Positions 18,928 to 36,541 of a stretch of 42,750 nucleotides of DNA are shown piece after piece (the first letter of the stretch is position 1; every line of letters begins with the position of its first letter). Below the pieces are notes generated by a model. That model had not been told where the DNA came from, searched no databases, and saw nothing but the letters and a program-made list of their open reading frames with translations. This stretch comes from Magnetococcales bacterium (GTDB taxonomy: Bacteria > Pseudomonadota > Magnetococcia > Magnetococcales > JADFWT01): the NCBI GenBank assembly GCA_015233785.1, contig JADFWT010000012.1:1-42750 (forward strand). Direction: 5' to 3'. Made by a program: the position numbers and the translations under genes.

Positions 18928-21696
18928 ATGAACGACGAAAATAAGGGCTACAGCTTTAACGCCTTGCAGGCCAAAGGCGAAGCTGCATTTCCGAACTACT
19001 ATGTGGGTATCCACTCGCTGCGCGATATCGCCACCCGCGAAGATCGCGTCTGTGTCATCAATATTCTCGGTGGCGAGAGCCGTACCGTGACCCCCACCAG
19101 CCACGCTTTCTCCGGTGGCAACATTGTCTGCGGCACCATGCCTGGACGCTCTGGTGAGGTGATGAAGACCAAGGCGGGCAATATTCCCGTCTATCACAAC
19201 ATCAAAGAGGCGATGGCCGCTGGTCACAAGTTTAATGTGGCGGTGGTCTATGTGCCCCCTTCGGGCGTGAAGGATTCGGTGATTGAGGCTGTGCGCGTCA
19301 ATCCCGACATCACCAAGGTGGTGATTCTCACCGAGAAGGTGCCGGTACGGGACTCCCGTATTATTCGTCAATACTGCCAGTTGCGCGGTGTGGACGTGTT
19401 TGGCGGCAACTGTCTGGGCGTGGGCGACTCCCATCACAAGGTCCGCATCGGCGGCGCTTTAGGTGGCAACTCCCCGGAAGAGTCCATGGTTCCGGGCTCT
19501 ATCGGTGTCTTCTCCAACTCCGGCAATTTTACCACCACCATAGCCACCTACCTGCTCACTGGCGGCTGGGGAACGACGGTCTCCATCTCTTCCGGTAAGG
19601 ATGTTTACATCCACTACTCAGCACCGGAATACACCTACGCCATGCACAATGACGACCGTACAGCGGCGTCGGTGATGTACATTGAGCCGGGTGGTTACTA
19701 CGAGTACGACCTGGAGTTTAAAAAGCCTGTGGTGGCCTGCATCGTTGGTCGTTGGAAGGCCAAACTGACCCGCTCCTGCGGCCATGCTGGTGCCATTGCC
19801 GGTGCTGGCGATAATGCCCAGGAAAAAGAGAAGTGGTTCATGAACAAGTTCGACGTGAATGAGATTTTCACGCCGGACAATCCGGTCTGCTCCGCCAAGG
19901 GCGCAGTGGTGATCAACATTTCGCACATTCCTGCGGCCATGACCGCTGTGATGAAGCTGAATGGCAAAGAGCCCGATTTTGAGCCTCGGGGCGACCTCTC
20001 TCTGAAGTGTTGGTTCTCCAACAGTCAGGGTATTGATCTGCCTAAGGAGTTGCAGGTTCCGGTTGTGGAGGCCATTGAGCCTTACAATGAGCAGATTGCC
20101 GGTCTCTCCAAACAGGTGGGCACCATCTTCCCGCGTCAGAACATGAAGGACTGCTCCGGCGCCTCGCGGATGGATCCCAAGACCCAGGTGACCCAGATTC
20201 ACGGCACCAGTGTTCTGGATGCTTCCACCAAGTCCTATGAAGAGAATCTGGTTCAGTCGTTGATCCGGGAGTACCCGGATGCTAACGGCGCTGCCATGAC
20301 CAACGTGGTGCTTAATGCCCTGGTCAACCAGTCCGGCTCCATCGGTCTGGCGGCGGCGGATACGGCACGTCAGGCTGGCAACAGCCCCAACACCTGTCTT
20401 TCGTCGTCCGTGGCCATGATGGGCCCCAATATGGTGGCCAAGGCACGCAAGGCGTCTGAATTAATGGCCAATCTGTTCTTCGAGGCCGGTCTCAAGGATG
20501 CTTCCGACGCCTCGTTTGACGTAGGTGCGTTGGTAGATAAGGTCGTTTCTGGTGATAATCTGGATGCGCTCACCTCTGAGAAGGGCTGCAAGCGTGGCAA
20601 GAAGATGCTGGCGGGTATGGAAGCGCGTGGCGTCAAGTCAGTGTTTGTGGACTTTCTGAATGCGCTGGCCAAGAAAAGCGGTCGTGAGTTGAATGCCCAG
20701 TTGGTGTTGGCGGCGACCTCCTGTCACCTCTGCTGGTCGGGCCTGATGCGTAAGCGTGTGGCCATGAACACCGTGGTGAATATGGCTTGGCATTTGCGTA
20801 TCTATGCCACGCTGGTGGGTTCTGCTGTACCTGCCGATCAGCAGCCGGACAAGAAAACCTTCTGCGGTGTGGCCGTCAAGGATCTGGTGGAGAGTTGGAG
20901 CTTTACCGAGACCGCCTTCCTGGCGCTGTTCGGCAAGCGTCCCAACGACGAAGAGCGCTTTGGGTTCTCCGTATTGCTGGGTCTTATCGTCACCAACGGT
21001 CCGGGGACCATTTCGGCTCAGGGTGCCAAGGGTGCCGTGGCGGCGGACGGTTCCGAGGTTCCTGGACGCGTTCAGGTCAACAAAGGCTACATCGGCTTCC
21101 TGACCCATACCGGTTATGCCCATGGCGGCAACGGCTTTGAGGCTATCGCCTTCTTGCTGGATCGCTTTCGTGACAGTGGGTTGAAGGATCCGGGTGCAAG
21201 GGATCATGGAATGGATCTTACCGCCATGGCTATGGCGTACGGCAAAGAGTATCTGGCTTATAAGATTCAGGCCAAGGCAGCTGGTAATCTTAACTACGCC
21301 AAGATTCCATGCATCAACCACCCGGTCTTCAAGGGCGAGGATGTCAACTACGATCCTCGTGAAACCTTTGTGGGTGATTTGTTTAAAAGTCGTGGAGATT
21401 ACAATATCTTCCAGGATTTTTATCATGAGTTGGTCAACGCCCTCTACAAGACCGGCGTCAGTCGCAACGTCTACTGCGTCAATGTGGATGCGGTGATTGC
21501 GGTGATTCTGCTTAAGATGCTCTGGACCCCATTCAGCGAAGGGAAGATCAGCGAATCCGTCATGGAGAGCGCAGCCTTCACCACCTTCCTGTTTGGTCGC
21601 ATGATCGGCAGCGCAGCGGAGATCGACGACCACACCAACCGTGGCCGTAACATGGATACCCGTACCGCCGCCAGTAAATGCTCCTATGCCGGATAG
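18928..21696 (+). CDS. aclA: ATP citrate lyase, enlarged CoA-ligase/citrate-synthase-like (large) subunit
   Basis: 922 residues against 608-610 in Chlorobium. Residues 20-350 form the SucD-like CoA-binding and ligase part, with the phospho-His286 in RSCGHAGAIAGAG. Residues about 640-922 form a citrate-synthase-like lyase module: the entry helices KDLVESWSFTETAFLALFG, then YAHGGNGFEA (His732), INHPVFKGEDVNYDPR (His798) and VNVDAVIA (Asp854), ending GRMIGSAAEIDDH...MDTRTA as in other AclA proteins. Residues about 435-640 are extra and look like a degenerate second citrate-synthase-like stretch without catalytic His. It follows aclB by 69 bases. I recall an atypical ATP citrate lyase being reported for Magnetococcus MC-1; this may be that type, which I could not verify. 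Confidence 0.86.
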   Translation: MNDENKGYSFNALQAKGEAAFPNYYVGIHSLRDIATREDRVCVINILGGESRTVTPTSHAFSGGNIVCGTMPGRSGEVMKTKAGNIPVYHNIKEAMAAGHKFNVAVVYVPPSGVKDSVIEAVRVNPDITKVVILTEKVPVRDSRIIRQYCQLRGVDVFGGNCLGVGDSHHKVRIGGALGGNSPEESMVPGSIGVFSNSGNFTTTIATYLLTGGWGTTVSISSGKDVYIHYSAPEYTYAMHNDDRTAASVMYIEPGGYYEYDLEFKKPVVACIVGRWKAKLTRSCGHAGAIAGAGDNAQEKEKWFMNKFDVNEIFTPDNPVCSAKGAVVINISHIPAAMTAVMKLNGKEPDFEPRGDLSLKCWFSNSQGIDLPKELQVPVVEAIEPYNEQIAGLSKQVGTIFPRQNMKDCSGASRMDPKTQVTQIHGTSVLDASTKSYEENLVQSLIREYPDANGAAMTNVVLNALVNQSGSIGLAAADTARQAGNSPNTCLSSSVAMMGPNMVAKARKASELMANLFFEAGLKDASDASFDVGALVDKVVSGDNLDALTSEKGCKRGKKMLAGMEARGVKSVFVDFLNALAKKSGRELNAQLVLAATSCHLCWSGLMRKRVAMNTVVNMAWHLRIYATLVGSAVPADQQPDKKTFCGVAVKDLVESWSFTETAFLALFGKRPNDEERFGFSVLLGLIVTNGPGTISAQGAKGAVAADGSEVPGRVQVNKGYIGFLTHTGYAHGGNGFEAIAFLLDRFRDSGLKDPGARDHGMDLTAMAMAYGKEYLAYKIQAKAAGNLNYAKIPCINHPVFKGEDVNYDPRETFVGDLFKSRGDYNIFQDFYHELVNALYKTGVSRNVYCVNVDAVIAVILLKMLWTPFSEGKISESVMESAAFTTFLFGRMIGSAAEIDDHTNRGRNMDTRTAASKCSYAG

Positions 21697-21953: not shown

Positions 21954-22017
21954 TTTTGTTGGTGCATGACATGTGTACCGAGTCTTCTTGATCGTATCAG
22001 GTTTGAGGTTTTCAGGG

Positions 22018-22374
22018 ATGTTAGAGAACTATTTTCCCATCCTGGTGTTCCTGTTCATCGCCATTGGGTTTGCGGTGTTCTTGATGGCGGGGAACTACAT
22101 TGTTGGGTTTAAGCGCCCTTACGATGTTAAAACGAGCCAGTATGAGTGCGGGTTTGACCCCATACACCGGGTTCGAATGCCCTTTGATGTTCGTTACTAC
22201 CTGATTGCCATACTCTTTATAATTTTCGATATTGAAGCGGCATTTTTGTTCCCCTGGGCCGTCGCCTTTAAGCAGATCGGCATTATCGGCTTTGTGGAGA
22301 TGATTCTGTTTCTGTTGGTACTGCTGGTCGGCTACGCCTACGCCTGGAAGAAAGGGGCTCTGGAATGGGAATGA
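22018..22374 (+). CDS. nuoA: NADH-quinone oxidoreductase subunit A
   Basis: 118 residues, three membrane helices. Part of the membrane arm of complex I next to the quinone site. The conserved loop [17 protein letters not shown] and the motif [19 protein letters not shown] are diagnostic. The ATG at 22018 has GAGG 9 bases upstream and gives the family N-terminus MLENYFPIL; an upstream GTG at 21973 would add unlikely residues. First gene of the operon, overlapping nuoB by 10 bases. Confidence 0.96.
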
Positions 22375-22874
22375 TCGAAGAGGTCCGGGACGAGGCGCAG
22401 AATCGTGGTTTTCTGCTGACGTCAGCCGATAAGATTGTAAACTGGGCGCGCACCTCCTCAATGTGGCCCATGACCTTCGGTCTGGCCTGCTGTGCGGTGG
22501 AGATGATGCACGCCGGCGGTAGTCGTTATGATCTTGATAGGTTTGGGATTATCTTTCGTGGCTCCCCACGTCAGTCTGACGTGATGGTGGTGGCGGGAAC
22601 CCTCACCAACAAGATGGCCCCGGCGCTTCGCAAGCTTTATGATCAAATGCCGGAACCCCGCTGGGTAATTGCCATGGGGGCCTGCGCCAGTGGTGGCGGG
22701 TACTATCATCACACCTATTCGGTAGTGCGTGGATGTGGGCGTGTAGTTCCTGTGGATATCTACATTCCCGGTTGCCCTCCCACGGCTGAAGCGCTGCTCT
22801 ACGGCATCATTCAGTTGCAGAAAAAGATTCATAAGACCCATACGCTATATTCCGGATGGGAGCTTTCCAAATGA
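22365..22874 (+). CDS. nuoB: NADH-quinone oxidoreductase subunit B
   Basis: 169 residues. Carries the terminal 4Fe-4S cluster N2 that reduces quinone. Ligands are the tandem Cys42-Cys43 (LACCAVEMM), Cys107 (GACASGG) and Cys137 ([10 protein letters not shown]). It starts inside the end of nuoA and ends in an ATGA overlap with nuoC, implying translational coupling. Confidence 0.98.
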
Positions 22875-23425
22875 TTCGTGAGGATTTGGAACAGTTGGAG
22901 GCGCGCCTGCTGAAGGTGTTTTCTGAAGCCAAGTTGGAGCGGACCCTGGATCACATGGTGATGTGGGTAGAGCCGGACCGGTTGGTGGAAACCATGACGC
23001 GGCTGCGGGATGATGATGCGCTTAATTTTAAGCAGATGATGGATCTGACGGCGGTCCACTACCCGAAGCGGGAAGCACCTCTTGAGATTGTTTACCAGTT
23101 GCTGTCGGTTTACAGAAACCAGCGTTTGCGAGTGAAGATGGCGGTGCCGGATGGTGCGATGATTCCCACGGTGACCGGTATTTGGAGTTGCGCTAACTGG
23201 TACGAGCGTGAGACCTATGAGATGTTCGGGGTTCTTTTTAAGGGACATCCCGATCTGCGGCGTCTTTTGACTGAGTACGATTCAGAAGACTATCCGCTGC
23301 GTAAGGAGTTTCCGTTGTGTGGGCATTACGATGTCTTCTACGACGAAAAGCAGCGCCGTGTGGTTCGAAAGCCGGTGGAGTTGCCGCGTGAAAGTCGGGA
23401 GCCTTATTCCCGTAAACGCGCTTGA
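22871..23425 (+). CDS. nuoC: NADH-quinone oxidoreductase subunit C
   Basis: 184 residues. A peripheral-arm subunit equivalent to mitochondrial 30 kDa NDUFS3. Signature [26 protein letters not shown] and the ending PLRKEFPL are present. The ATG overlaps the nuoB stop (ATGA), with GGGAG 8 bases upstream. NuoC and NuoD are separate genes here, unlike the fused E. coli NuoCD. Confidence 0.96.
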
Positions 23426-23484
23426 GCGACTGGTTGGCGCAGACCTGCGGATTCTGAGTGAGAACACCTGCGAGTGAGAAGCTG

Positions 23485-24663
23485 ATGGTGGAGCAGCAAG
23501 ACAACAACTATATGATCAACTTCGGCCCGCAGCATCCAGCGGCCCACGGCGTGCTGCGTCTGATGCTGGAGCTGGATGGCGAAGTTGTTCAACGGGCCGA
23601 TCCCCATATCGGATTTTTGCATCGGGGCACCGAAAAGCTTCTGGAGCATAAGACCTATCTCCAGGGTCTGCCCTACTTTGACCGCATGGACTATATGTCC
23701 ATGATGTCCGAGGAGCACTCCTGGGTGCTGGCGGTAGAGAAGCTGATGGGTATTGAGGCCCCGGAGCGTGCACAGTATATCCGGGTGATCTTTGCCGAGC
23801 TGACCCGGCTGCTGAATCATCTGCTGTTTTTGGCCGCCCACGGCTTGGATGTCGGGGCGATGACCATGTTTATTTACTGCTTTCGTGAGCGTGAAGAGAT
23901 CTTCGACATGTACGAAGCAGTCTCTGGAGCCCGGATGCATGCGGCCTATTTCCGCCCTGGTGGCGTGGCCAAGGATCTGCCTGAAGGGGTAGCGGAGAAG
24001 ATTCGCAACTTTACCGAGCACTTCCCGTCGAAGATTGACGACTACGAGACGCTGCTCACCGAGAATCGAATCTGGAAGCAGCGGTTGGTGGATATCGGCG
24101 TTGTCAGTGCCGAAGATGCCCTGGATATGGGGTTTGCGGGACCGATGTTGCGTGGTTCCGGGGTGGCCTGGGATTTGCGCAAGTCGGAGCCTTATGATGT
24201 CTACGACAAGCTGGATTTTGATATTCCAGTGGGCAGCAGCGGGGACTGCTATGATCGATATCTGGTGCGGGTTGAGGAGATGCGGCAGAGCAATCGCATC
24301 ATCCGTCAGTGTCTGGACCAGATGAAAGAGGGGCCTATCAAACACGAGAACTTTAAGATCTCGACCCCTTATCGCAAGGATATGCATGTCAGCATGGAAT
24401 CGCTGATTCACCACTTCAAGCTCGTTACCGAGGGGTTTGAAGCGCCGGTAGGTGAGGTGTATGCGGCCAGCGAGTCTCCCAAAGGGGAGCTTGGGGTCTA
24501 TCTGGTGTCGGATGGTTCCAATAAACCCTATCGGGCTCGGGTTCGTGCGGCTGGATACAATCATCTCCAGGCCGCGGATCAGATGACCCGGGGGCATATG
24601 ATTGCCGATGTAACCACTATTATCGGCAGTGTGGATATCGTTTTCGGCGAGATTGATCGCTGA
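23485..24663 (+). CDS. nuoD: NADH-quinone oxidoreductase subunit D
   Basis: About 392 residues. The 49 kDa-type subunit that, with NuoB, forms the quinone pocket. The N-terminal loop [13 protein letters not shown] and the segment [16 protein letters not shown] (Arg47 in LHRG) are near-identical to the mitochondrial protein, and DRMDYMSMM follows. ATG 23485 gives the family N-terminus; an upstream in-frame GTG at 23458 is less likely. Arg47 corresponds to the NDUFS2 arginine methylated by NDUFAF7, and a gene of that family lies at the end of this operon. Confidence 0.97.
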
Positions 24664-24704
24664 GTGTTCGGAAAGCCGAGTAACAGCAGGTTGGCGGCGG
24701 TTAC

Positions 24705-25217
24705 ATGAGACAGATACAGAAAGATCCCAACGCCGGTACGTTTCAGTTTTCAGAGACGGCTCTGGGGGAGATTGAAAAGATCTACGCCCGCTATCCGGCG
24801 GCCCAGCGTCGATCGGCGTTGATGCCGATTCTTCATCTGGCCCAGCGGGAGTTTGGCGGCTGGCTCAGTCAGGAGGCGTTGGATTTTGTGGCCGAGTTTA
24901 CCGGAATCGCACAGATTCGGGTCTATGAGGTGGCCACCTTCTACACCATGTACAACCTGGAGCCGGTTGGTAAATACCATGTCCAGGTATGTACCAACAT
25001 CTCTTGCTGGCTCTGTGATTCTGATGGTGTGATGGCCTCCCTTAACGGGAAGCTGAAGCAGGAGTTTGGCACCACCAGCGACGATGGTCGCTTTACCCTG
25101 GTGGAGGTGGAGTGTCTCGGGGCTTGCGTCAATGCTCCGATGATGCAGATTAACGATGATTATTACGAGAATCTGACGCCTGAAAAGGTGTCCGATATCA
25201 TCGACCGGCTCCCCTGA
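24705..25217 (+). CDS. nuoE: NADH-quinone oxidoreductase subunit E
   Basis: 170 residues. The 24 kDa-type thioredoxin-fold subunit holding the 2Fe-2S cluster N1a. Ligands are Cys96 and Cys101 (VCTNISCWLCDSD) and Cys137 and Cys141 (VECLGACVNAP). The N-terminal helical part has the usual ALMPILHLAQREFGGWL. It works with NuoF and NuoG as the NADH-oxidising module. Confidence 0.97.
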   Translation: MRQIQKDPNAGTFQFSETALGEIEKIYARYPAAQRRSALMPILHLAQREFGGWLSQEALDFVAEFTGIAQIRVYEVATFYTMYNLEPVGKYHVQVCTNISCWLCDSDGVMASLNGKLKQEFGTTSDDGRFTLVEVECLGACVNAPMMQINDDYYENLTPEKVSDIIDRLP

Positions 25218-25265
25218 TGATGGGGTGCGTTCACCCAGGGCGGGTGGAGCTTGACAGGTGACGGA

Positions 25266-26546
25266 ATGAGTTATAAGTCCGATACGAAGATTCTCTTCAA
25301 GAATATTGACCGAGATGACAGCCATAAGTTGGCGGTTTATCAAGGCAATGGCGGCTATCAGGCGGTTCTTAAGGCCTATGGTATGCAGCCGGTTGAAGTG
25401 ATCGATGAGGTGAAACGCGGCGGTGTTCGTGGTCGTGGTGGAGCCGGGTTTCCAGCGGGCCTCAAGTGGTCCTTTATTCCCAAGGATGATCCGCGTCCCA
25501 AGTATCTGGTCTGCAACGCCGATGAGGGTGAGCCGGGTACCTGCAAGGACCGTGATATCATCCGATACGATCCTCACTTGCTCATCGAAGGGATGGCCAT
25601 TGCCGCCTATTCGGTGAATGCTACGCGTGGCTACATCTATATTCGTGGTGAGTTTTATCGCGAGGCCGAGGTGCTGCAAGGGGCTATTGATGAGGCGTAT
25701 GCCGCCGGGATTCTTGGCGACAACTGCCACGGCAAGGGGATTCGCTTCGATTTGGCGGTACATCGTGGAGCTGGGGCATACGTATGCGGCGAGGAGACCG
25801 GCCTGATTGAGTCTCTGGAAGGCAAAAAGGGGCAGCCCCGCTTGAAGCCGCCGTTTCCGGCCAATATTGGGCTGTATGGTTGTCCCACGGTGATCAACAA
25901 CGTGGAGACCCTGGCTTCAGTTCCGGATATCATCGCCAACGGCGGTGACTGGTACGCTGGGCTTGGTGTGGAAAACTCTTCGGGAACCAAGCTCTTCTCG
26001 GTCTCTGGGCACGTCAATAAGCCCGGCAACTATGAGGTGGAGTTGGGCATCCCCATGAAGATGCTGCTGGAAGAGTATGCCGGCGGCGTGCGTGGTGGGT
26101 GGGATAATCTTAAAGGGGTGATTCCCGGCGGCTGTTCCATGCCGGTTCTCACCGCTGACATATGCGAAACCGTGACCATGGACTACGATGCGTTGGCCAA
26201 ATCGGGATCATATCTCGGCTCCGGCGCGGTGATTGTCATGGATAAGTCGGTCTGTATCGTTAAGGCGATTAGGCGGCTTTCGCAGTTTTATCGGCATGAG
26301 TCGTGCGGGCAGTGCTCGCCTTGCCGAGAGGGAACCGGTTGGATCTCCAAAATTATGGATCGCCTGGAGTCCGGCAAAGGAACCCCTGATGATATCGATC
26401 TGCTGTTGAATGTGTGTGATAACATTCAGGGCAAGACCATTTGTGCTCTCGGCGATGCCGCTGCCATGCCCGTTCGTGGTGCGATTCAGGCGTTTCGAGA
26501 GGAGTTTGAGTACCACGTGGAGCACGGCCGCTGCATGGTGGGCTGA
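25266..26546 (+). CDS. nuoF: NADH-quinone oxidoreductase subunit F
   Basis: 426 residues. Binds NADH and FMN and carries the 4Fe-4S cluster N3. The FMN/NADH loop RGRGGAGFPAGLKW and NADEGEPGTCKDRDI are present. The cluster motif is ESCGQCSPCREGTGW, with the fourth Cys in GKTICALGDAAA. The start at ATG 25266 (MSYKSDTKILF) has AGGTGA just upstream; a TTG at 25251 is less likely. Confidence 0.97.
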   Translation: MSYKSDTKILFKNIDRDDSHKLAVYQGNGGYQAVLKAYGMQPVEVIDEVKRGGVRGRGGAGFPAGLKWSFIPKDDPRPKYLVCNADEGEPGTCKDRDIIRYDPHLLIEGMAIAAYSVNATRGYIYIRGEFYREAEVLQGAIDEAYAAGILGDNCHGKGIRFDLAVHRGAGAYVCGEETGLIESLEGKKGQPRLKPPFPANIGLYGCPTVINNVETLASVPDIIANGGDWYAGLGVENSSGTKLFSVSGHVNKPGNYEVELGIPMKMLLEEYAGGVRGGWDNLKGVIPGGCSMPVLTADICETVTMDYDALAKSGSYLGSGAVIVMDKSVCIVKAIRRLSQFYRHESCGQCSPCREGTGWISKIMDRLESGKGTPDDIDLLLNVCDNIQGKTICALGDAAAMPVRGAIQAFREEFEYHVEHGRCMVG

Positions 26547-26563
26547 GGAGCGAGCGACAAACA

Positions 26564-28984
26564 ATGCCTACTCTGGTCATCGACGACAAGGAGATCAGCG
26601 TCAAGCCCGGCGCCACCATTATGGAGGCGGCTAAGCAGCTTGGCGTCTTTATTCCGCACTTTTGCTACCATCCCAAGTTGCCGGTAGATGGCAACTGTCG
26701 GATGTGTCTGGTGGAAGTGGTGAAGATGCCGAAGCCTGTGGTCTCCTGCGCCATGCCGGTCAACGACGGCATGGTGGTTAAGACCGACAGTGAAATGGTG
26801 CGTCAGGCGCGCCAGGGGGTGATGGAGTTTTTGCTCATAAACCACCCCTTGGACTGCCCGGTATGCGACCAGGGCGGCGAGTGCAATTTGCAGGATTTCG
26901 CCATGAAGTACGGCCCGGATCGGTCGCGCTTTATTGACGAAAAGCGCAGCGTCCCGGATCGCGATATGGGTCCGCTCATCGAGACGGTGATGAACCGCTG
27001 CATACACTGCACCCGCTGCATACGCTTCTCTACCGAGATTGCGGGCGTTGAGGAGATGGGCGGCATTAATCGCGGCGACCATATGCAGATCGGCGCGGGC
27101 GTTGAAAAGACTTTGAGCTCGGAGTTGGCCGGAAATATGGCCGAGCTCTGTCCGGTTGGGGCGCTAAACCTGAAGCCGTTCCACTACGAGGCGCGGGGTT
27201 GGGAGCTGAAGCAGAGTTCCGGCCTTTGCGGCCAGTGCACCATTGGCTGTCGGGTGCGTCGGGATCATCTGGATGGGGCCATCAAGCGTATCATGGTGGA
27301 TCCATGTGACGAGATCAACGAAGCGTGGATATGCGATAAAGGTCGTTTCTCTTGCGACGGCCTGACGGTGGATCGGTTGACCGAACCTCAGTTGCGGAAG
27401 CCGGATAATGGTGACGCTCTGAACCGCGTCGGGTGGCCTGAGGCGCTGGATTACGCCGCTGAGATTCTCAAGGGTGTGAAGCCTGAAGAAGTTGCTGGTC
27501 TGGCTGGATCGACCGGAACGGTGGGTGAGGAACTTTACGCCTTCCAGGATCTGTTGGTGAACGGCATCGGTACGCCCCATGTGGACCATCGACTGCGTCA
27601 GCGAGATTTTCGTAGCGATTCCGACTCCCTGACTCGGGCCGATCTTTTGATGAACACCTCATTAGTGGATATGGAACGGGCCGACGCCGTCCTTTTGATC
27701 GGTGCTGACCCCCGCTTTGAGGCACCGATTCTAAATCTGCGTATCCGTAAGGCCGTGAAGGCCGGTGCTCAGACGATGTCGGTGCATGCTCGTCGACTGA
27801 ATGGCAATATGGATGGTCTGCAAGAGGCGCTTTGTGCCCCAGGTAGTGAAGCGGCCTTTTTGGGTGAGGTTCTGCAAGCGGTAAAGAGCGGTGTCTCTAT
27901 GGATGAGACCCCAGAGAGCCCCACAGCCGACTCCATTGCCTCAACGTTGGTGAAGGCAGAGCGACCGGTCGTGGTGTTGGGAGATTATGCCATACATCAC
28001 CCTGGAGCCGAGCGCATTCGACGGTTGGCGGTGGCTATTCTTGAAGCCGCAGGCGGATTGACAGAAGCGTGGAACGGTTTCAACCGAGTGACCTCTAGAG
28101 CCAGTGTTCCTGTGGCTCAGGATATGGGGGTTGCACCCCATCGTGGACCTGGCTATTCCCGCAAAGAGAAGCGCGGTTATGATGCCCACCGTATACTTAA
28201 GGCGGCGGCTTCCGGCGAGATTAAGGTGCTGTTTTTGCTTGGGGTTGACCCAGGCTTGGAGAGTAGTGATTCCACGCTGGCCAGAGAGGCGCTCGCCAAG
28301 GCGCGGGTGATCTATCTGGGGGCTTTTGACAGCCCTGTGGTGGAACAGGCGGATGTGGTGCTTCCCGGATTGGTGATCGGTGAGAAAGAGGCCACGCTGA
28401 CGAACTGTGAAGGGCGCGTTCAGCGCAGCGGTAAAGCGGTGGATGGTCCTGGGGATGCCAAAGAGGATTGGCGCATTCTGCGGGCGTTGAGTGATCGCTT
28501 CTCATCGTCGCTGGTGTACAACGATCTCGAAAGTCTACGTTCAGCCATGGCCAAGGCCGATCTGCGTTATAATGTGGAGCGGCTGGATGAGGAGATGCCT
28601 CCGGCTTGTGATCACACCCCAGTGACCAGAGGGTTGGCGGTTGATGGTGTGGATGCTCCGACGCAGTCCCAGGGATTGCGTCTGGTGGTGGAGCCCTCCT
28701 TCTATGTGGATGATCCGGTGGCACGGCGCTCGCCGCTGATGGCCAAGCTGGATAAAGGGAACCGTCTCAGGGTCAATCCTAAGGATGCAGAGTCGGCAGG
28801 TGTAGAGCCTGGACAGAAAGTGCGGGTTATACACGGCGAACGAACAGTGGAGATGGTGGCCGTAAGGGATGACCGTATTCCACAGGGTGTTGTGTTTGCG
28901 TATTACGGGTATCCAACGGGATGCGCGCAGGATCTTTGCAGCGGGGAACAACCGTTCCCTGTGGTCAGTCTGGCCGGCATTTAA
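26564..28984 (+). CDS. nuoG: NADH-quinone oxidoreductase subunit G
   Basis: 806 residues. The 75 kDa-type subunit. N-terminal ligands: N1b Cys34, Cys45, Cys48 and Cys62; N5 His94, Cys98, Cys101 and Cys107; N4 Cys146, Cys149, Cys152 and Cys196. A further set, Cys222, Cys225, Cys229 and Cys257 (LCGQCTIGC and WICDKGRF), matches cluster N7, known from E. coli and Thermus but absent from mitochondria. The rest is a molybdopterin-oxidoreductase-like domain without cofactor, ending in an extended C-terminal domain. It lies 17 bases after nuoF. Confidence 0.97.
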   Translation: MPTLVIDDKEISVKPGATIMEAAKQLGVFIPHFCYHPKLPVDGNCRMCLVEVVKMPKPVVSCAMPVNDGMVVKTDSEMVRQARQGVMEFLLINHPLDCPVCDQGGECNLQDFAMKYGPDRSRFIDEKRSVPDRDMGPLIETVMNRCIHCTRCIRFSTEIAGVEEMGGINRGDHMQIGAGVEKTLSSELAGNMAELCPVGALNLKPFHYEARGWELKQSSGLCGQCTIGCRVRRDHLDGAIKRIMVDPCDEINEAWICDKGRFSCDGLTVDRLTEPQLRKPDNGDALNRVGWPEALDYAAEILKGVKPEEVAGLAGSTGTVGEELYAFQDLLVNGIGTPHVDHRLRQRDFRSDSDSLTRADLLMNTSLVDMERADAVLLIGADPRFEAPILNLRIRKAVKAGAQTMSVHARRLNGNMDGLQEALCAPGSEAAFLGEVLQAVKSGVSMDETPESPTADSIASTLVKAERPVVVLGDYAIHHPGAERIRRLAVAILEAAGGLTEAWNGFNRVTSRASVPVAQDMGVAPHRGPGYSRKEKRGYDAHRILKAAASGEIKVLFLLGVDPGLESSDSTLAREALAKARVIYLGAFDSPVVEQADVVLPGLVIGEKEATLTNCEGRVQRSGKAVDGPGDAKEDWRILRALSDRFSSSLVYNDLESLRSAMAKADLRYNVERLDEEMPPACDHTPVTRGLAVDGVDAPTQSQGLRLVVEPSFYVDDPVARRSPLMAKLDKGNRLRVNPKDAESAGVEPGQKVRVIHGERTVEMVAVRDDRIPQGVVFAYYGYPTGCAQDLCSGEQPFPVVSLAGI

Positions 28985-29052
28985 GGCACGGCCCATCGAC
29001 TTGATGTCTTGGTGGATGCAAGGCGCGGGTGGGATGGGGTCGGAACCGGGAA

Positions 29053-30090
29053 ATGGACATGTTGGAAGCAGCATTACTACAGATACATGGCTTCGGCAAC
29101 GAGTGGTTTGGCTTCCTGTGGCCGCTGGTCTGGTCGGTGGTCAAGGTGATGGTCCTGCTCGGACCGGTGTTTATGGGTGTCAGCTATCTGACCCTGGCCG
29201 AGCGTAAGATTATCGGTGCCATGCAGGTTCGGGTAGGACCCAACCGTGTTGGGTTCTTTGGGCTTTTGCAGCCCTTTGCCGATGCTGCCAAGTTGTTCAC
29301 TAAAGAGACGTTGATTCCGTCTACGGCGGACAAGATTCCTTTTTTGATTGCACCGGTTCTGGTGATGGCCCCTGCACTGCTCTCATGGGCGGTGGTGCCG
29401 ATTTACCCGGAAGTGGTGGTGGCCGAAGTGAACGTCGCCATGCTCTTCCTGCTGGCGGTGGCTTCACTGGAGGTGTACGGCGTGCTGCTGGCCGGATGGG
29501 CCTCCAATACCCGGTACTCGTTTCTTGGTGCGCTGCGTGCGGCTTCCCAGATGATCTCTTATGAGGTCTCCATGGGGTTCGCGCTGGTGCCGGTGGTGAT
29601 GCTGGCCGGAAGCCTCAATCTGACCGACGTCGTGATGTCCCAGCAGAACATGTGGAACATCGTTCCGCTCTTTCCTGCGGCCATGGTTTACTTTATCTCG
29701 GTGGTGGCGGAGACCAACCGCGCCCCGTTCGATCTTCCGGAAGCGGAAGCGGAGTTGGTGGCAGGATTTTTCACCGAATACTCCGGTATGGGCTTCGGCA
29801 TGTTCTTTCTTGGCGAGTACGCCAACATGATTTTGGTCTCGGCATTGGGCGCGTTGATGTTCCTGGGTGGATGGCTGCCGCCATTGGAGATCCTGTCGTT
29901 TATTCCGGGCGTTCTCTGGTTTGGTATGAAGGTGAGCTTCCTTTTGTTTGTGTTTCTGTGGATTCGGGCCACCTTCCCGCGCTATCGCTACGATCAGTTG
30001 ATGCGCATCGGTTGGAAGGTGTTTCTGCCTATCTCACTGGTGTGGATCTTCGTAACGGGAGCCGCCATGCATTTGTTCGGTCTGGCTTAG
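29053..30090 (+). CDS. nuoH: NADH-quinone oxidoreductase subunit H
   Basis: About 345 residues, eight or more membrane helices. Links the quinone site to the proton channels. Signature segments are [21 protein letters not shown], the acidic loop [20 protein letters not shown] and [16 protein letters not shown] 29053 ([11 protein letters not shown]) is chosen for normal family length; ATG 29029 in frame would add eight residues. Confidence 0.96.
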
Positions 30091-30100
30091 GAGTGGTGGA

Positions 30101-30589
30101 ATGAGTCTGAGACAAACCCTGCGAGGTATGGCGCTTAAGGAGCTGTTTACCGGTATGACGGTGACGCTTCGGCATATGTTTAAGCCGAACATTACCATTC
30201 AGTACCCGGAACAGCGTACGCACATCTCACCCCGTTTTCGCGGTGAGCATGCCCTGATGAAATATAAGAGCGGGCGTGAGCGGTGTGTAGCATGCAAACT
30301 GTGTGAGGCGGTCTGTCCAGCCCAGGCGATCTATATCGAGATCGATGCGGAGAGTCAGGGACAGCGTCGCTGCACCTCGGTGTATGACATCGACAACGGC
30401 AAGTGCATCTTCTGCGGATATTGTCAGGAAGCCTGTCCTGTGGATGCCATTGTGCTGGGCCCCAATTTTGAAATGGTGGCCGAAACCCGTGAAGGGCTGC
30501 TCTCTGACAAAGAGAAGTTGCTCGGCAACGGTGTTAAGTGGAACGACCAGATTAACGCCAATCTGAAGGCGGACGCCAAATACCGGTAG
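30101..30589 (+). CDS. nuoI: NADH-quinone oxidoreductase subunit I
   Basis: 162 residues. The TYKY-type ferredoxin subunit with clusters N6a and N6b. Two CxxCxxCxxxC motifs are seen: Cys62, 65, 68 and 72, and Cys102, 105, 108 and 112. The N-terminal amphipathic helix anchors it to the membrane arm. GGAGTGG precedes the ATG, 10 bases after nuoH. Confidence 0.98.
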
Positions 30590-30603
30590 CTGGAGTGCAG
30601 GAA

Positions 30604-31206
30604 ATGATGGTGGCGGATTTCATATTTTTCATGTTTGCCGCAGTGGTGGTGGTCTCCGCCTTGATGGTAATTACGGTGCGTAACGCCGTACATTCGGTGC
30701 TGTTTCTGGCGCTGACCTTCTTCTCTACGGCGGGACTTTTCGTTCTGCTGCAAGCGGAGTTTTTGGCGGCCATTCTGGTGATGGTCTACATGGGTGCGGT
30801 GGCGATTTTGTTCCTGTTTGTGGTGATGATGCTGGATATTGACTTCACCACACTGCGCAAAGGTGCGCGTGAGCATCTACCGCTTGGCCTTACTGTGGGG
30901 TTGGTGATTCTCCTGGAGGTCGTCGCCATTGGTATGGGCTTTCATCAAAGCCCGGAGTCCGCTGCCGCAGCGGCCGCTCTGGAGCCGATGAACAACACCA
31001 TGGAGTTGGGAAAGCTGCTCTACACCAAGTATCTGTTTCCCTTCGAGGTGATCTCGCTGATTCTGCTGGTGGCGCTGATTGGTGCCGTAGCGCTGACCCT
31101 GCGTCAACGTAAGGATGCCAAACGGCAGGATATACATCAGCAGTTGGCCCGCAAACGTGAGGATGCTGTCCAGTTGAAGAAGGTCTCCTCCGGAGAGGGA
31201 GCATAA
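30604..31206 (+). CDS. nuoJ: NADH-quinone oxidoreductase subunit J
   Basis: About 200 residues, five membrane helices. Signature AVHSVLFLALTFFSTAGLFVLL and the conserved YMGAVAILFLFVVMML of helix 3. The ATG at 30604 has GGAG 8 bases upstream; a GTG three codons earlier is less likely. A charged cytosolic tail rich in Lys, Arg and Gln follows the last helix. Confidence 0.95.
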   Translation: MMVADFIFFMFAAVVVVSALMVITVRNAVHSVLFLALTFFSTAGLFVLLQAEFLAAILVMVYMGAVAILFLFVVMMLDIDFTTLRKGAREHLPLGLTVGLVILLEVVAIGMGFHQSPESAAAAAALEPMNNTMELGKLLYTKYLFPFEVISLILLVALIGAVALTLRQRKDAKRQDIHQQLARKREDAVQLKKVSSGEGA

Positions 31207-31209
31207 ACC

Positions 31210-31512
31210 ATGAGTCTGAACAGCTATCTGATCCTGAGCGCTATTCTGTTCACCATCGGTGTGTTCGGCATTTTCCTGAATCGTAAGAATGTCATCATCA
31301 TCATGATGGGCATTGAGTTGATTCTGCTGTCGGTGAATATCAATTTTGTCGCCTTTTCACACTACGGCGGAGATCTTACCGGGCAGGTATTTACCTTTTT
31401 TGTGATTTCGGTGGCGGCGGCCGAAGCAGCCATCGGCCTGGCGATTTTGGTGACCTTCTTCCGCAATATGGCCACCATTGACGTAGAGAAGATCGACAAC
31501 TTGAAGGGCTAG
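31210..31512 (+). CDS. nuoK: NADH-quinone oxidoreductase subunit K
   Basis: 100 residues, three helices, exactly the usual length. The proton-path glutamates Glu36 (MMGIELILL) and Glu72 ([10 protein letters not shown]) are present. It starts 3 bases after nuoJ ends. Confidence 0.97.
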
Positions 31513-31518
31513 CTGAGC

Positions 31519-33441
31519 ATGAGCAGCAACTTTCTCATCCTATTATTGCCGCTGTTAGGGGCGCTGATTGCTGGCCTGTTTGGTCGCATCATCGGCCTGC
31601 GGCTGAGCCAGTTGGCCACCATCATTGGTGTTGGCGGGTCCCTGGCGCTCTCTATTATGGCCTTTATGAGTGTAGCCGTTGGGGATGCGCCCACCATCCA
31701 TGAGCCGATATTCTCTTGGATTGTGTCTGGATCCTTCAAGGTGTCGTTTGCGATTTTGATTGATCGCCTGACGGCGGTAATGCTGATCGTGGTAAACGGG
31801 GTGGCATTCCTGGTCCACGTATATTCAGTGGGCTACATGGAGGATGATCCCCATCAGCCTCGTTTCTTCAGTTATCTGTCGCTCTTCACCTTCGCCATGC
31901 TGATGCTGGTCACCGGTGATAATTTTCTGCAACTGTTCTTCGGTTGGGAAGGTGTGGGGCTTTGCTCCTACCTGCTGATCGGCTTCTGGTTTAAAAAGGA
32001 GTCGGCTTGCAACGCGGCCATGAAGGCGTTTCTGGTTAACCGTGTTGGTGACTTCGGTTTTGCCCTGGGAATCTTCGCCATCTACATGATTTTTGGCACG
32101 CTGGACTATGCCGAGGTGTTTGAGTTGGCCCATCAGACCGGCACCTATCCGGCCCAGACCGCTTTCCCGCTGTTTGGTCAGGTGGACACCATCACCTTGA
32201 TATGTATGCTGCTCTTTATGGGGGCCATGGGTAAATCGGCCCAGCTCGGGTTGCACACCTGGTTGCCTGACGCCATGGAGGGACCAACGCCAGTGTCGGC
32301 CCTGATTCATGCCGCCACCATGGTAACTGCTGGTGTCTTTTTGGTCTGTCGCGCCTCTCCGCTGTTTGAACTTTCAGAGTTTGCTCTGGCTGTGGTGACG
32401 CTGGTGGGCGCTTTTACGGCCTTTTTCGCAGCCACCGTGGGCATGGTGCAGAACGATATCAAGCGGGTGATTGCCTACTCCACCTGTTCGCAACTTGGCT
32501 ACATGTTTTTTGGCGCAGGGGTTTCGGCCTATGCCGCCTCTATGTTCCACCTGATGACCCATGCTTTTTTCAAGGCGCTGCTGTTCTTGGGAGCCGGCGC
32601 TGTGATCTACGCCATGCATCACGAGCAGGATATGCGCAAGATGGGTGGGCTGGTGAGGAAAATCCCCATCACCTATGCGCTGATGATGATCGGCACCTTG
32701 GCGCTGACTGGTTTTCCCTATCTGGCGGGCTACTACTCCAAGGATGCCATTCTTGAGTCGGCATACGCTGCCCACACCACGGTGGGGATGATCGCGTGGA
32801 CACTGGGTATCGCCGCTGCATTTATGACGACCTTCTACTCGTTCCGACTGGTCTTTATGACCTTCCATGGCAAGCCAGCCAGCGAGAAAGCCTATGATCA
32901 CGCCCACGAGGCACCATGGGTGATGCGCTTCCCGCTGGTGGTGCTGGCGGTGGGTGCGGTGATCGCTGGTGCTGTGGGTGCGCCCATGGTTGGGGCGGAT
33001 TGGTTCCAGTCGGCTATTCAGTTGGTAGAGGGTCATGACGCACTGGAGCATGCGCACCATGTGAGTGGGCTTGCCAAGTGGGCACCGTTCATCATGTTCC
33101 TGTTTGGGCTTGGCGCCTCCTATCTGCTCTATGTCTTGAAGCCCGACATGCCGGGACGCATTGCCAAGAGCTGGCCTGGGGTTCATCAGTTTCTGCTCAA
33201 TGCCTGGTACTTTGATCGTCTCTATGAGCGTCTGTTTATCAACCCGGCCAAGGTGATTGGGCACGGGCTCTGGAAGACCGGCGATGAGACCATCATTGAC
33301 GGCTACGGCGTCAACGGATTGGCGAACACCATTGGACGCTGGGCCCAGGCCATGCGGCGGCTTCAGACCGGTTATATGTATCACTACGCCTTTGCCATGC
33401 TGGTGGGGGTGCTGGTGCTGGTGACGCTCTACGCGGCGTAA
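31519..33441 (+). CDS. nuoL: NADH-quinone oxidoreductase subunit L (antiporter-like)
   Basis: 640 residues. The distal proton-pumping subunit, with the long lateral helix at its C-terminus. Antiporter-family motifs GWEGVGLCSYLLIGFW and HTWLPDAMEGPTPVSALIHAATMV are present. It lies 6 bases after nuoK. Confidence 0.97.
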   Translation: MSSNFLILLLPLLGALIAGLFGRIIGLRLSQLATIIGVGGSLALSIMAFMSVAVGDAPTIHEPIFSWIVSGSFKVSFAILIDRLTAVMLIVVNGVAFLVHVYSVGYMEDDPHQPRFFSYLSLFTFAMLMLVTGDNFLQLFFGWEGVGLCSYLLIGFWFKKESACNAAMKAFLVNRVGDFGFALGIFAIYMIFGTLDYAEVFELAHQTGTYPAQTAFPLFGQVDTITLICMLLFMGAMGKSAQLGLHTWLPDAMEGPTPVSALIHAATMVTAGVFLVCRASPLFELSEFALAVVTLVGAFTAFFAATVGMVQNDIKRVIAYSTCSQLGYMFFGAGVSAYAASMFHLMTHAFFKALLFLGAGAVIYAMHHEQDMRKMGGLVRKIPITYALMMIGTLALTGFPYLAGYYSKDAILESAYAAHTTVGMIAWTLGIAAAFMTTFYSFRLVFMTFHGKPASEKAYDHAHEAPWVMRFPLVVLAVGAVIAGAVGAPMVGADWFQSAIQLVEGHDALEHAHHVSGLAKWAPFIMFLFGLGASYLLYVLKPDMPGRIAKSWPGVHQFLLNAWYFDRLYERLFINPAKVIGHGLWKTGDETIIDGYGVNGLANTIGRWAQAMRRLQTGYMYHYAFAMLVGVLVLVTLYAA

Positions 33442-33456
33442 GGGGATATTCGTGAC

Positions 33457-34959
33457 ATGCTGAGTCTGGTTACATTTCTACCTTTGATCGGCGGGCTGCT
33501 GATTTTTCTCGCGGTGCGAGATCAGAGCGACAGCAGCGCCTCGACGGCCAAGTATATCGCCCTGGGCGTCTCGCTTCTGACTTTTCTGCTTAGTCTGCGG
33601 CTTTATGTGGGGTTTGATCTTACCACCGCTGAATTCCAGTTTCTGGAAGAGGTGCCGTGGCTGCCTGAACAGGGAATCGTCTACCGGATGGGTATCGACG
33701 GCATCAGTCTGCCGTTTGTACTGCTCACAGCTCTGTTGACCCCCATCTGCATACTCGCCTCCTGGGAGTCCATCACCCACCGGGTGAAAGAGTACATGAT
33801 CGCCTTTTTGGCGTTGGAGAGCTTTGTGATCGGCGTCTTTTGTGCGCTTGATTTCATTCTCTTCTATATTCTCTGGGAAGCGATGTTGATTCCGATGTTT
33901 CTGCTCATCGGTGTCTGGGGCGGACCACGCCGGGTTTATGCGGCGATGAAGTTCTTTCTCTACACCTTGGGCGGCTCGGTATTGATGTTGATTGCGGTGT
34001 TGGCGCTGGCCCATAAGGGCGGTACCTTCAGTATCCCGGAGTTGATGGCTATACCATTTGACTTCGGCTTCCAGATTTTCATTTTTTTGGGCTTCTTTGT
34101 GGCCTTTTCGGTAAAGGTGCCCATGTGGCCGGTTCACACATGGTTGCCGGATGCTCACGTTGAGGCTCCCACGGCGGGGTCCGTTATTCTGGCTGGTGTG
34201 CTGTTGAAGATGGGCGCGTACGGTTTTCTGCGCTTCTCACTGCCGATGGTACCGGACGCCTCACGATACTTTATGCCGATGATTTTTGGATTGTCGTTGG
34301 TGGCCATTGTCTACACAGCGCTGGTGGCGCTGATGCAGAAAGACCTGAAGAAGCTGATTGCCTATTCATCGGTCTCGCACATGGGCTTTGTTACCATCGG
34401 CCTGTTCGCCTTTAATCAGCAGGGCGTCGAGGGGGGCATCTTACAGATGGTCAACCACGGCGTGGTTTCCGGCGCACTCTTCCTGCTCGTGGGCGTGGTT
34501 TACGACCGCCTGCATACACGTGAGATTGCCAAATTTGGCGGTCTGGTTCACCGCATGCCTGTTTATGCGGTGATCTTTATGATCTTCACCATGGCCTCGG
34601 TGGGTTTGCCCGGCACCAATGGCTTCGTGGGGGAGTTCTTGATCCTGTTAGGGGCGTTCCTAACCAATAAAGCCGTGGCCATGGTGGCTGCAACGGGCTT
34701 GGTGCTGGGTGCTGCCTACATGCTCTGGATGTTCAAGAAAGTGGTCTTTGGCGAGATCCAGAACAAGGCAGTGGAGAGCATCACCGATGTTAATGCCAGA
34801 GAGGTGGCGATGTTTGTGCCGTTGTTGATTCTGGTATTCTGGATGGGTTTCTACCCCGGTCCATTCCTGGAGATCATGCACGTCTCGGTGGAGAATTTGG
34901 TGCAGCAGGCCACCGCCGTCAAAACGGGTGTGGCATCCGTAGCAGCAATGGCCCATTAG
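33457..34959 (+). CDS. nuoM: NADH-quinone oxidoreductase subunit M (antiporter-like)
   Basis: 500 residues, about 14 membrane helices. A proton-pumping subunit. Motifs: YILWEAMLIPMFLLIGVWGG, HTWLPDAHVEAPTAGSVILAG, and LIAYSSVSHMGFV. The hairpin-rich repeat begins 2 bases after its stop codon. Confidence 0.97.
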   Translation: MLSLVTFLPLIGGLLIFLAVRDQSDSSASTAKYIALGVSLLTFLLSLRLYVGFDLTTAEFQFLEEVPWLPEQGIVYRMGIDGISLPFVLLTALLTPICILASWESITHRVKEYMIAFLALESFVIGVFCALDFILFYILWEAMLIPMFLLIGVWGGPRRVYAAMKFFLYTLGGSVLMLIAVLALAHKGGTFSIPELMAIPFDFGFQIFIFLGFFVAFSVKVPMWPVHTWLPDAHVEAPTAGSVILAGVLLKMGAYGFLRFSLPMVPDASRYFMPMIFGLSLVAIVYTALVALMQKDLKKLIAYSSVSHMGFVTIGLFAFNQQGVEGGILQMVNHGVVSGALFLLVGVVYDRLHTREIAKFGGLVHRMPVYAVIFMIFTMASVGLPGTNGFVGEFLILLGAFLTNKAVAMVAATGLVLGAAYMLWMFKKVVFGEIQNKAVESITDVNAREVAMFVPLLILVFWMGFYPGPFLEIMHVSVENLVQQATAVKTGVASVAAMAH

Positions 34960-34960
34960 T

Positions 34961-35041
34961 ATTGGGGAGTCCAGAGGGCCTCAGGCCTTCTGGCAGGTGC
35001 AGGACAGAGTCCTGCCAGGGGTTTGGGGACAGAGTCCCCAA
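34961..35041 (+). repeat. Modular hairpin repeat, copy 1 (between nuoM and nuoN)
   Basis: About 80 bases nearly identical to 38691-38770; the first 60 positions differ at 4 sites by eye. It folds into three consecutive hairpins: CCAGAGGGCC/GGCCTTCTGG (34971-34993), GCAGGAC/GTCCTGC (around 34999-35015) and TTGGGGAC/GTCCCCAA (35023-35041). No reading frame crosses it sensibly. It is transcribed inside the nuo mRNA and may affect RNA stability or the nuoM/nuoN ratio (inference). Confidence 0.85.
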
Positions 35042-35080
35042 TAAAGAGACACCGAAAACGTTTTGGGAGCGCAAGAGCCC

Positions 35081-36541
35081 ATGCCTGTTCAATTGCCGGA
35101 TATCAATCTGACCCTTCTACTGCCGGAGATATTTATCGCTCTGGCGGGAATGGCTCTGCTGCTCTTGACGGCGTGGCGTGAGGATCAAGAGGGTCGCGAG
35201 CTGGTCGCCAACGGCACCATCGGCACCATTGTGGTGGCCATGGGGCTGCTCTGGTTTACCGCCCACACCACCCGCACTACTACCTTTGGAGGCATGTTCA
35301 CCAGCGATAGCTTTGCGCTGTATATGAAGATGCTGATGTGTACTGCTGCGCTGCTGCCGCTGTTGGTGAGTCGTGACTACCTGAAGCGTAACGAGATCTT
35401 CAAGGGTGAGTATCAGGTGTTGTCGCTGTTTGCGCTGCTTGGCGGCCTGATTATGGCCTCCAGCGGTGATTTCCTGACCCTCTACCTGGGTCTGGAGCTG
35501 ATGAGCCTCTCCATCTATGTGTTGGCAGCTTTTCGTAGGGACGATAAGCGCTCCAGCGAGGCGGGTCTTAAGTACTTTGTGCTGGGCTCCCTGGCCTCTG
35601 GCATTCTTCTCTACGGCATCACGCTGATTTACGGCGCTTCAGGCACCACCACCTTTACCGATATTCACGCCTATGTCTCCGGCGATTTGCATCACCATGG
35701 CGCCATTGTCAATCTGGGCATGATTCTGATTTTGATCGGCTTCAGCTTTAAGATTGCCGCTGCTCCGTTCCACATGTGGGCCCCGGATGTCTATGAGGGC
35801 GCGCCTACCTCGGTGACGGCCTTTATGGCGGTCATGCCCAAGATTGCCGCCTTTGCCGCACTCTATCGCGTATTGCTTGAGGCGTTTGGTCCTCTGCATG
35901 CAGAGTGGAGCCCGGTTCTACAGTTCCTGGCGGTGCTCTCTGTGGCTGTAGGTGCCTTGGCGGCCATTGCTCAGACCAATATCAAGCGCATGCTGGCCTA
36001 CTCCTCCATCGGACATGTGGGCTACGTGCTCATTGGTCTTTCAGTGGGGAGTGATCTCGGATACCAGGCGGTTCTGGTCTATCTGGCGGTCTACATTTTC
36101 ATGAATGTCGGAGCCTTTACACTGATTTTGCTGCTTAATCGTGATGGCGTGGGTGACGAGATTTCCGATTACCAGGGGTTGGCGCACAAGCGTCCGTTGC
36201 TGGCCTTCCTGATGGCGCTTTTCATGTTTAGCATGGCGGGCATTCCGCCGTTGGCTGGATTCATCGGTAAGCTATACGTCTTTATGGCGGCGGTGCAGGC
36301 CGGCATGATTAAGCTGGCCATTGTCGGCATTCTCTTCTCGGCGGTGGGTGCCTTCTACTACCTGCGGGTGGTGAAGCGCATGTACTTTGATCAGCCGCAG
36401 AGCGACAGGGACTTTGAGATGGAGGTGAGTATCCCCAACCGTCTGGTGATGGGGGTGACCGGTCTGTTTGTGGTGATTGTCGGTATTTTTCCCGAACAGA
36501 TTTTAACTTGGGCCAAGATCTCCATGAGCTCGTTTCAGTAG
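35081..36541 (+). CDS. nuoN: NADH-quinone oxidoreductase subunit N (antiporter-like)
   Basis: 486 residues. The third proton-pumping antiporter-like subunit. Motifs: LYLGLELMSLSIYVLAAF, HMWAPDVYEGAPTSVTAFMA, and MLAYSSIGHVGYVLIGLS. ATG 35081 gives the family start MPVQLPDINLTLLLPEI; a TTG at 35063 is rejected. It is separated from nuoM by 121 bases, the largest gap in the operon, filled by the repeat. Confidence 0.97.
   Translation: MPVQLPDINLTLLLPEIFIALAGMALLLLTAWREDQEGRELVANGTIGTIVVAMGLLWFTAHTTRTTTFGGMFTSDSFALYMKMLMCTAALLPLLVSRDYLKRNEIFKGEYQVLSLFALLGGLIMASSGDFLTLYLGLELMSLSIYVLAAFRRDDKRSSEAGLKYFVLGSLASGILLYGITLIYGASGTTTFTDIHAYVSGDLHHHGAIVNLGMILILIGFSFKIAAAPFHMWAPDVYEGAPTSVTAFMAVMPKIAAFAALYRVLLEAFGPLHAEWSPVLQFLAVLSVAVGALAAIAQTNIKRMLAYSSIGHVGYVLIGLSVGSDLGYQAVLVYLAVYIFMNVGAFTLILLLNRDGVGDEISDYQGLAHKRPLLAFLMALFMFSMAGIPPLAGFIGKLYVFMAAVQAGMIKLAIVGILFSAVGAFYYLRVVKRMYFDQPQSDRDFEMEVSIPNRLVMGVTGLFVVIVGIFPEQILTWAKISMSSFQ

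Follow-up and report, generated by a model that had tools for sequence, protein, structure and literature searches.

The reverse Krebs cycle has ATP citrate lyase (ACL) as its key enzyme, and in humans ACL is a target for drugs. The literature is divided on its citrate-synthase-like core, which is held either to cut citryl-CoA or to act allosterically. The locus studied here lies in a window of 42,750 nucleotides (the whole stretch of DNA that was analyzed) from a Magnetococcales genome of 3.36 Mb, 364 contigs, and 72% completeness. It raises the question of why its large subunit, AclA, is so long. An earlier note on this DNA had put the excess at about 300 residues and had proposed that it was a degenerate second citrate-synthase-like segment.

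The aclBA locus and its assignment to type II ATP citrate lyase

The reading frame of AclA proved to be a genuine ORF, and the small subunit, AclB, is encoded next to it (Table 1). AclB and AclA were adjacent at all the loci where both could be read. On sequence grounds, we assign the pair to type II ATP citrate lyase, since AclB carries the ATP-grasp and citrate-binding domains and AclA combines an SCS-alpha-like domain bearing a phospho-His with a catalytic C-terminal citryl-CoA lyase (CCL). This family has already been postulated in Magnetococcus MC-1 (Mmc1_3638/3639), as stated in PMC6783814, which cites Hugler and Sievert (2011) and Schubbe (2009), and in tubeworm symbionts, according to PMC3522073 and PMC6315080. 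Like the pair described here, the type II enzyme postulated in the order Magnetococcales is encoded by two adjacent genes, for products of about 420 and 920 aa; the source genome belongs to this order. A run of nuo genes (NADH:quinone oxidoreductase) lies directly 3′ of aclBA on the same strand (21973–36541).

The best PDB match of the N-terminal part of AclA was the small subunit of citryl-CoA synthetase, 6hxq (residues 39–296, E 3e-32), and the NCBIfam SCS alpha model matched with E 1e-36. At the other end of the protein, an intact lyase module follows the extra segment, as the earlier note had said; PF00285 matched this C-terminal CCL in 24 of 30 members. Its catalytic residues were mapped through 6hxp. 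We take His732 to be equivalent to His274 of citrate synthase, His798 to its His320 and to His900 of human ACLY, and Asp854 to its Asp375 and to ACLY Asp1026.

Table 1. Features of the aclBA locus (positions are those of the window; residues are those of AclA)
Feature	Position	Strand	Evidence
AclB, small subunit, 423 aa	17587..18858	+	ATP-grasp and citrate-binding domain; Pfam PF08442, PF16114
AclA, putative type II ATP citrate lyase large subunit, 922 aa	18928..21696	+	Domain and homologue matches
SCS-alpha-like (citryl-CoA synthetase) domain, residues ~36–335	19033..19932	+	6hxq, NCBIfam SCS alpha
Phospho-acceptor His286, in CGHAG	19783..19785	+	Invariant in 34/34 homologues
Degenerate citryl-CoA lyase domain (pseudo-CCL), residues ~395–640	20110..20847	+	hhalign, AF2, Foldseek, same-gene HMM matches
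Invariant N-terminal motif of the pseudo-domain, residues 403–416 (RQNMKDCSGASRMD)	20134..20175	+	10/14 residues invariant
Gln591, catalytic-Asp column of the pseudo copy	20698..20700	+	Asp in 17/34 homologues; Gln, Ser, or other elsewhere
Intact citryl-CoA lyase domain, residues 641–922	20848..21693	+	PF00285 over cut-off, NF004869, PDB 6hxp
His732 (AHGG), intact copy	21121..21123	+	Invariant in 34/34; aligns with GSAHGG of 6hxp
His798 (NHPVFK...DPR), intact copy	21319..21321	+	Invariant in 34/34; aligns with YGHRYY..DPR of 6hxp
Asp854 (NVDA), intact copy	21487..21489	+	Invariant in 34/34; aligns with NVDG of 6hxp

The stretch from His286 to the C-terminus measures 636 residues, the figure given in the earlier note. 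The excess of about 300 residues is real when AclA is set against its solved relatives: the AclA chain of Chlorobium has 617 aa, and the corresponding Hydrogenobacter proteins, CcsB and CCL, have 353 and 268 aa. Judged by length, type I enzymes have no extra copy. The type I enzymes (Chlorobium AclAB, 6hxj, and human ACLY) share with AclA the order of a synthetase module, a phospho-His, and then a CCL; however, they have one CCL per large subunit in a homotetrameric core, whereas AclA has two in tandem, one of them lacking the catalytic His residues. The closest solved relatives of the two halves are those of Hydrogenobacter, 6hxq for the synthetase part and 6hxp for both CCL copies. In that organism, the synthetase and the CCL are separate proteins, whereas in AclA they are fused and the CCL is duplicated.

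No canonical citrate synthase was found in the source genome at 72% completeness (no PF00285 match above the cut-off). A weak PF00285 match on one of its contigs (C29) was rejected: it had no citrate-synthase character, and the frame looked by eye like a PstS-type (phosphate-binding) protein. A relative has a separate 438-aa frame that matches the citryl-CoA lyase model and is possibly a citrate synthase.

A degenerate citryl-CoA lyase copy precedes the intact one

Residues ~395–640 are a degenerate copy of CCL, with the citrate-synthase fold, placed directly before the intact copy at 641–922. The motifs that had been quoted for the segment, GSIGLAAADTARQAGNSP (residues 470–487), SSSVAMMGPN, and NMAWHLRIYATLVGS, are present in it. 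In a profile–profile alignment with hhalign, residues 430–640 matched 641–922 at 97%, with P from 4e-11 to 6e-11 over 189–192 collinear columns and about 20% identity. The score was 77, while 200 column shuffles gave at most 25 and the reversed profile gave 15; the synthetase domain and the linker, used as controls, matched nothing. A profile built from the segment alone was run against 399 genomes and found the segment in the 38 that carry the gene. Its sole further matches were to that gene's C-terminal copy, found in 14 of these 38 genomes (best E 3.7e-6, per genome; in the source genome, positions 21463–21633, E 1.8e-4), and it matched nothing in the 361 genomes without the gene.

The full-length model of AclA was of moderate confidence (pLDDT 71, pTM 0.56), and a fold search with the whole protein did not resolve the two copies; the segment was therefore folded alone. 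The AF2 model of residues 395–645, made with an alignment of 27 genome-derived rows, reached a pLDDT of 85.7 and a pTM of 0.82. In Foldseek, its 38 best PDB matches were all CCLs or the CCL/CSH (citrate-synthase-homology) part of ACL, followed by citrate synthases; the first was the Hydrogenobacter CCL 6hxp (E 3.4e-5, probability 1.00, TM 0.54). The TM-scores against CCL were moderate (0.5–0.6), with an rmsd of 5–7 Å.

Could the segment be a helical insertion of other origin whose resemblance to CCL is accidental? In a direct sequence search against PDB, it matched solved CCLs only weakly (6hxp, E 1.4), the longer profile (395–645) gave spurious PPR matches only, and a Pfam scan assigned the segment to no family in the source AclA and brought just one of 32 members near PF00285 (E 0.06). 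Such a resemblance would not explain the distance between the real score and the shuffled and reversed controls, the matches within the same gene, or a fold search headed by CCL and ACL only. Traces of CCL also persist in the segment: AGNSPN stands where 6hxp has GGNSLN, some plasmid homologues keep DPR, and in plasmid homologues ADAVLAAI of the segment parallels VDAVIAAL of the active copy. We rejected chance similarity, which we regard as highly improbable.

The excess thus turned out to be what the earlier note had proposed, as the profile–profile match, the confident fold model, and the same-gene profile matches agree. In the passages on the type II enzyme in the papers cited above, we saw no reference to an additional, degenerate CCL, and no published description of such a duplication was found in the open-access literature. 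While the type II family is known, its duplicated CCL is apparently undescribed in that literature; priority is uncertain, because the search covered open-access papers and not key ones under subscription, among them Hugler and Sievert (2011).

Degeneration and constraint of the pseudo copy

The earlier note had also stated that the segment lacks the catalytic His and Asp. For His this holds throughout, as neither site has His in any of the 34 homologues, and the loops that bear both residues are shortened or replaced. For Asp it holds only in part: the source protein has Gln591, and Asp is kept in half of the homologues, among them those of the plasmid clade and of some Magnetococcales. The absence of His from both sites, together with Gln591, indicates that residues 395–640 are not an active CCL, and the retained Asp makes some residual ligand-binding role possible.

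Invariant columns made up 7% of residues 433–640, versus 28% of the active copy and 38% of the synthetase domain, and identity to the plasmid homologues was 31–39% in the segment against a comparison value of 52–60%. Pairwise dN/dS values for the segment, which are rough given synonymous distances of 0.4–0.9, were well below 1 and mostly higher than those of the other domains. For the four closest pairs within a single genus, they were 0.11–0.30 for the segment, 0.05–0.21 for the active copy, and 0.05–0.08 for the synthetase domain. From these comparisons of columns and codons, the constraint on the pseudo copy is relaxed but real. Its invariant residues include R403, Q404, K407, D408, S410, G411, A412, S413, M415, and D416 of the N-terminal motif, and R481, R567, and R610 farther on. 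One homologue (G007:C76:157622–160450) has an insertion of about 28 residues within the degenerate copy, near residue 545.

One explanation of this pattern is that the pseudo copy is mainly regulatory, with a CoA/acetyl-CoA or citrate pocket that is kept without the catalytic His residues and senses ligands. The core of human ACLY is a homotetramer of CSH domains, and Wei et al. (2023; PMC10115795) argue for an allosteric role of this module, together with the loading and unloading of CoA. The Asp found in 17 of 34 homologues, the three invariant arginines, and the 403–416 motif would suit such a pocket. However, the loops of both catalytic His residues are shortened or replaced, and in conservation the segment falls far below every other part of AclA, unlike a strongly constrained ligand site. 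We think a mainly regulatory role unlikely.

Proposed working of the enzyme

We consider it probable that AclBA is a type II ACL with tandem CCL folds, in which the dead copy serves as a built-in structural partner and the enzyme would be A2B2. AclB and the N-terminal part of AclA would activate citrate through phospho-His286 and form citryl-CoA, which the C-terminal CCL (His732, His798, and Asp854) would split into acetyl-CoA and oxaloacetate. The copy without the catalytic His residues, which follows the synthetase linker, would replace one subunit of a citrate-synthase-type dimer. Since each AclA chain has two CSH folds, the four lobes of the central core could come from two chains, and an A2B2 assembly is predicted instead of A4B4. 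The 403–416 motif probably takes part in the junction with the synthetase domain or in the neighboring active site. We infer the catalytic assignment of the two copies, their pairing geometry, the A2B2 stoichiometry, and the role of this motif from the evidence given above.

A more specific proposal is that the core is asymmetric, with one live and one dead CCL lobe per large subunit and two lyase sites in the A2B2 enzyme. We put this forward tentatively, as a fair possibility that could well prove wrong; if true, the asymmetric core would be a case, within the citrate synthase superfamily, of a catalytic domain fused to a pseudo-catalytic partner.

The active site may instead be composite, with the pseudo copy lending residues of the 403–416 motif across the interface, as the subunits of citrate synthase do. 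It would account for a motif that is invariant while the rest of the pseudo copy varies, and the C-terminal copy seems to have no such N-terminal motif of its own, because only a short segment precedes its first helix. The reading overlaps with the structural-partner model and is not exclusive of it. We consider a composite site somewhat doubtful.

Whichever role the pseudo copy has, the enzyme offers a natural pair of CCLs, with and without the catalytic His, in which cleavage and allostery could be separated by point mutations.

Distribution and plasmid neighborhoods

AclA was found in 38 of 48 Magnetococcia genomes (66%–75% identity). Another family in the phylum had it in 4 of 17 genomes. 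An orthologue with 67%–68% identity lies at about 97% of the length of a single-contig genome of the same order. A contig scan of genomes with a single AclA sequence gave two Magnetococcales only, and no AclA relatives were found in viral contigs. In one Magnetococcales family, the gene is absent from all eight genomes. With five of these at 95% completeness or more, true absence is favored over the incompleteness considered in PMC6783814. Full-length AclA was also present on 19 plasmids (51%–57% identity) of Paraburkholderia, Caballeronia, Sinorhizobium, Microvirga, Aminobacter, Gemmobacter, and Polymorphobacter.

All the full-length homologues found, from Magnetococcia and from plasmids, have the extra segment, which is therefore a family trait and not a peculiarity of the source gene; the comparison did not include the type II sequences of tubeworm symbionts, Nitrospina, and Planctomycetes. 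The extra length that had attracted attention is thus genuine relative to type I but no oddity within its own family. As a family trait, it provides a natural test of the role of the citrate-synthase-like domain. The CCL duplication could also serve as a simple sequence hallmark of type II enzymes, whose present names in annotation pipelines are "CoA-binding protein" or "hypothetical protein"; the plasmid homologues of Burkholderiales and Rhizobiales bear merely these names.

The role ascribed to the Magnetococcales enzyme is in the reverse Krebs cycle, and ATP-dependent citrate cleavage has been reported for MC-1 cells (PMC6783814). On the plasmids of heterotrophs, aclB-aclA has other neighbors: tripartite tricarboxylate transporter genes and an acyl-CoA thioesterase in Microvirga; tcuAB, a tricarboxylate transporter, and a thioesterase in Gemmobacter; a 2-hydroxycarboxylate transporter in Polymorphobacter; and an MFS transporter, dctA, and a LysR regulator in Burkholderiales. 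No such neighbors were present in the stretch examined in Aminobacter. The transporter, TcuAB, and thioesterase genes suggest that the plasmid type II ACL belongs to a cassette for the catabolism of citrate, tricarballylate, or similar acids. Because the family occurs beside transport genes of this type in heterotrophs, its presence need not imply autotrophy.

Two further loci may be decaying copies. In Sinorhizobium fredii CCBAU 45436, the gene is in two pieces, with a 610-aa open frame. Only a fragment, which matches residues 647–787, is left on a plasmid of Paracoccus denitrificans.
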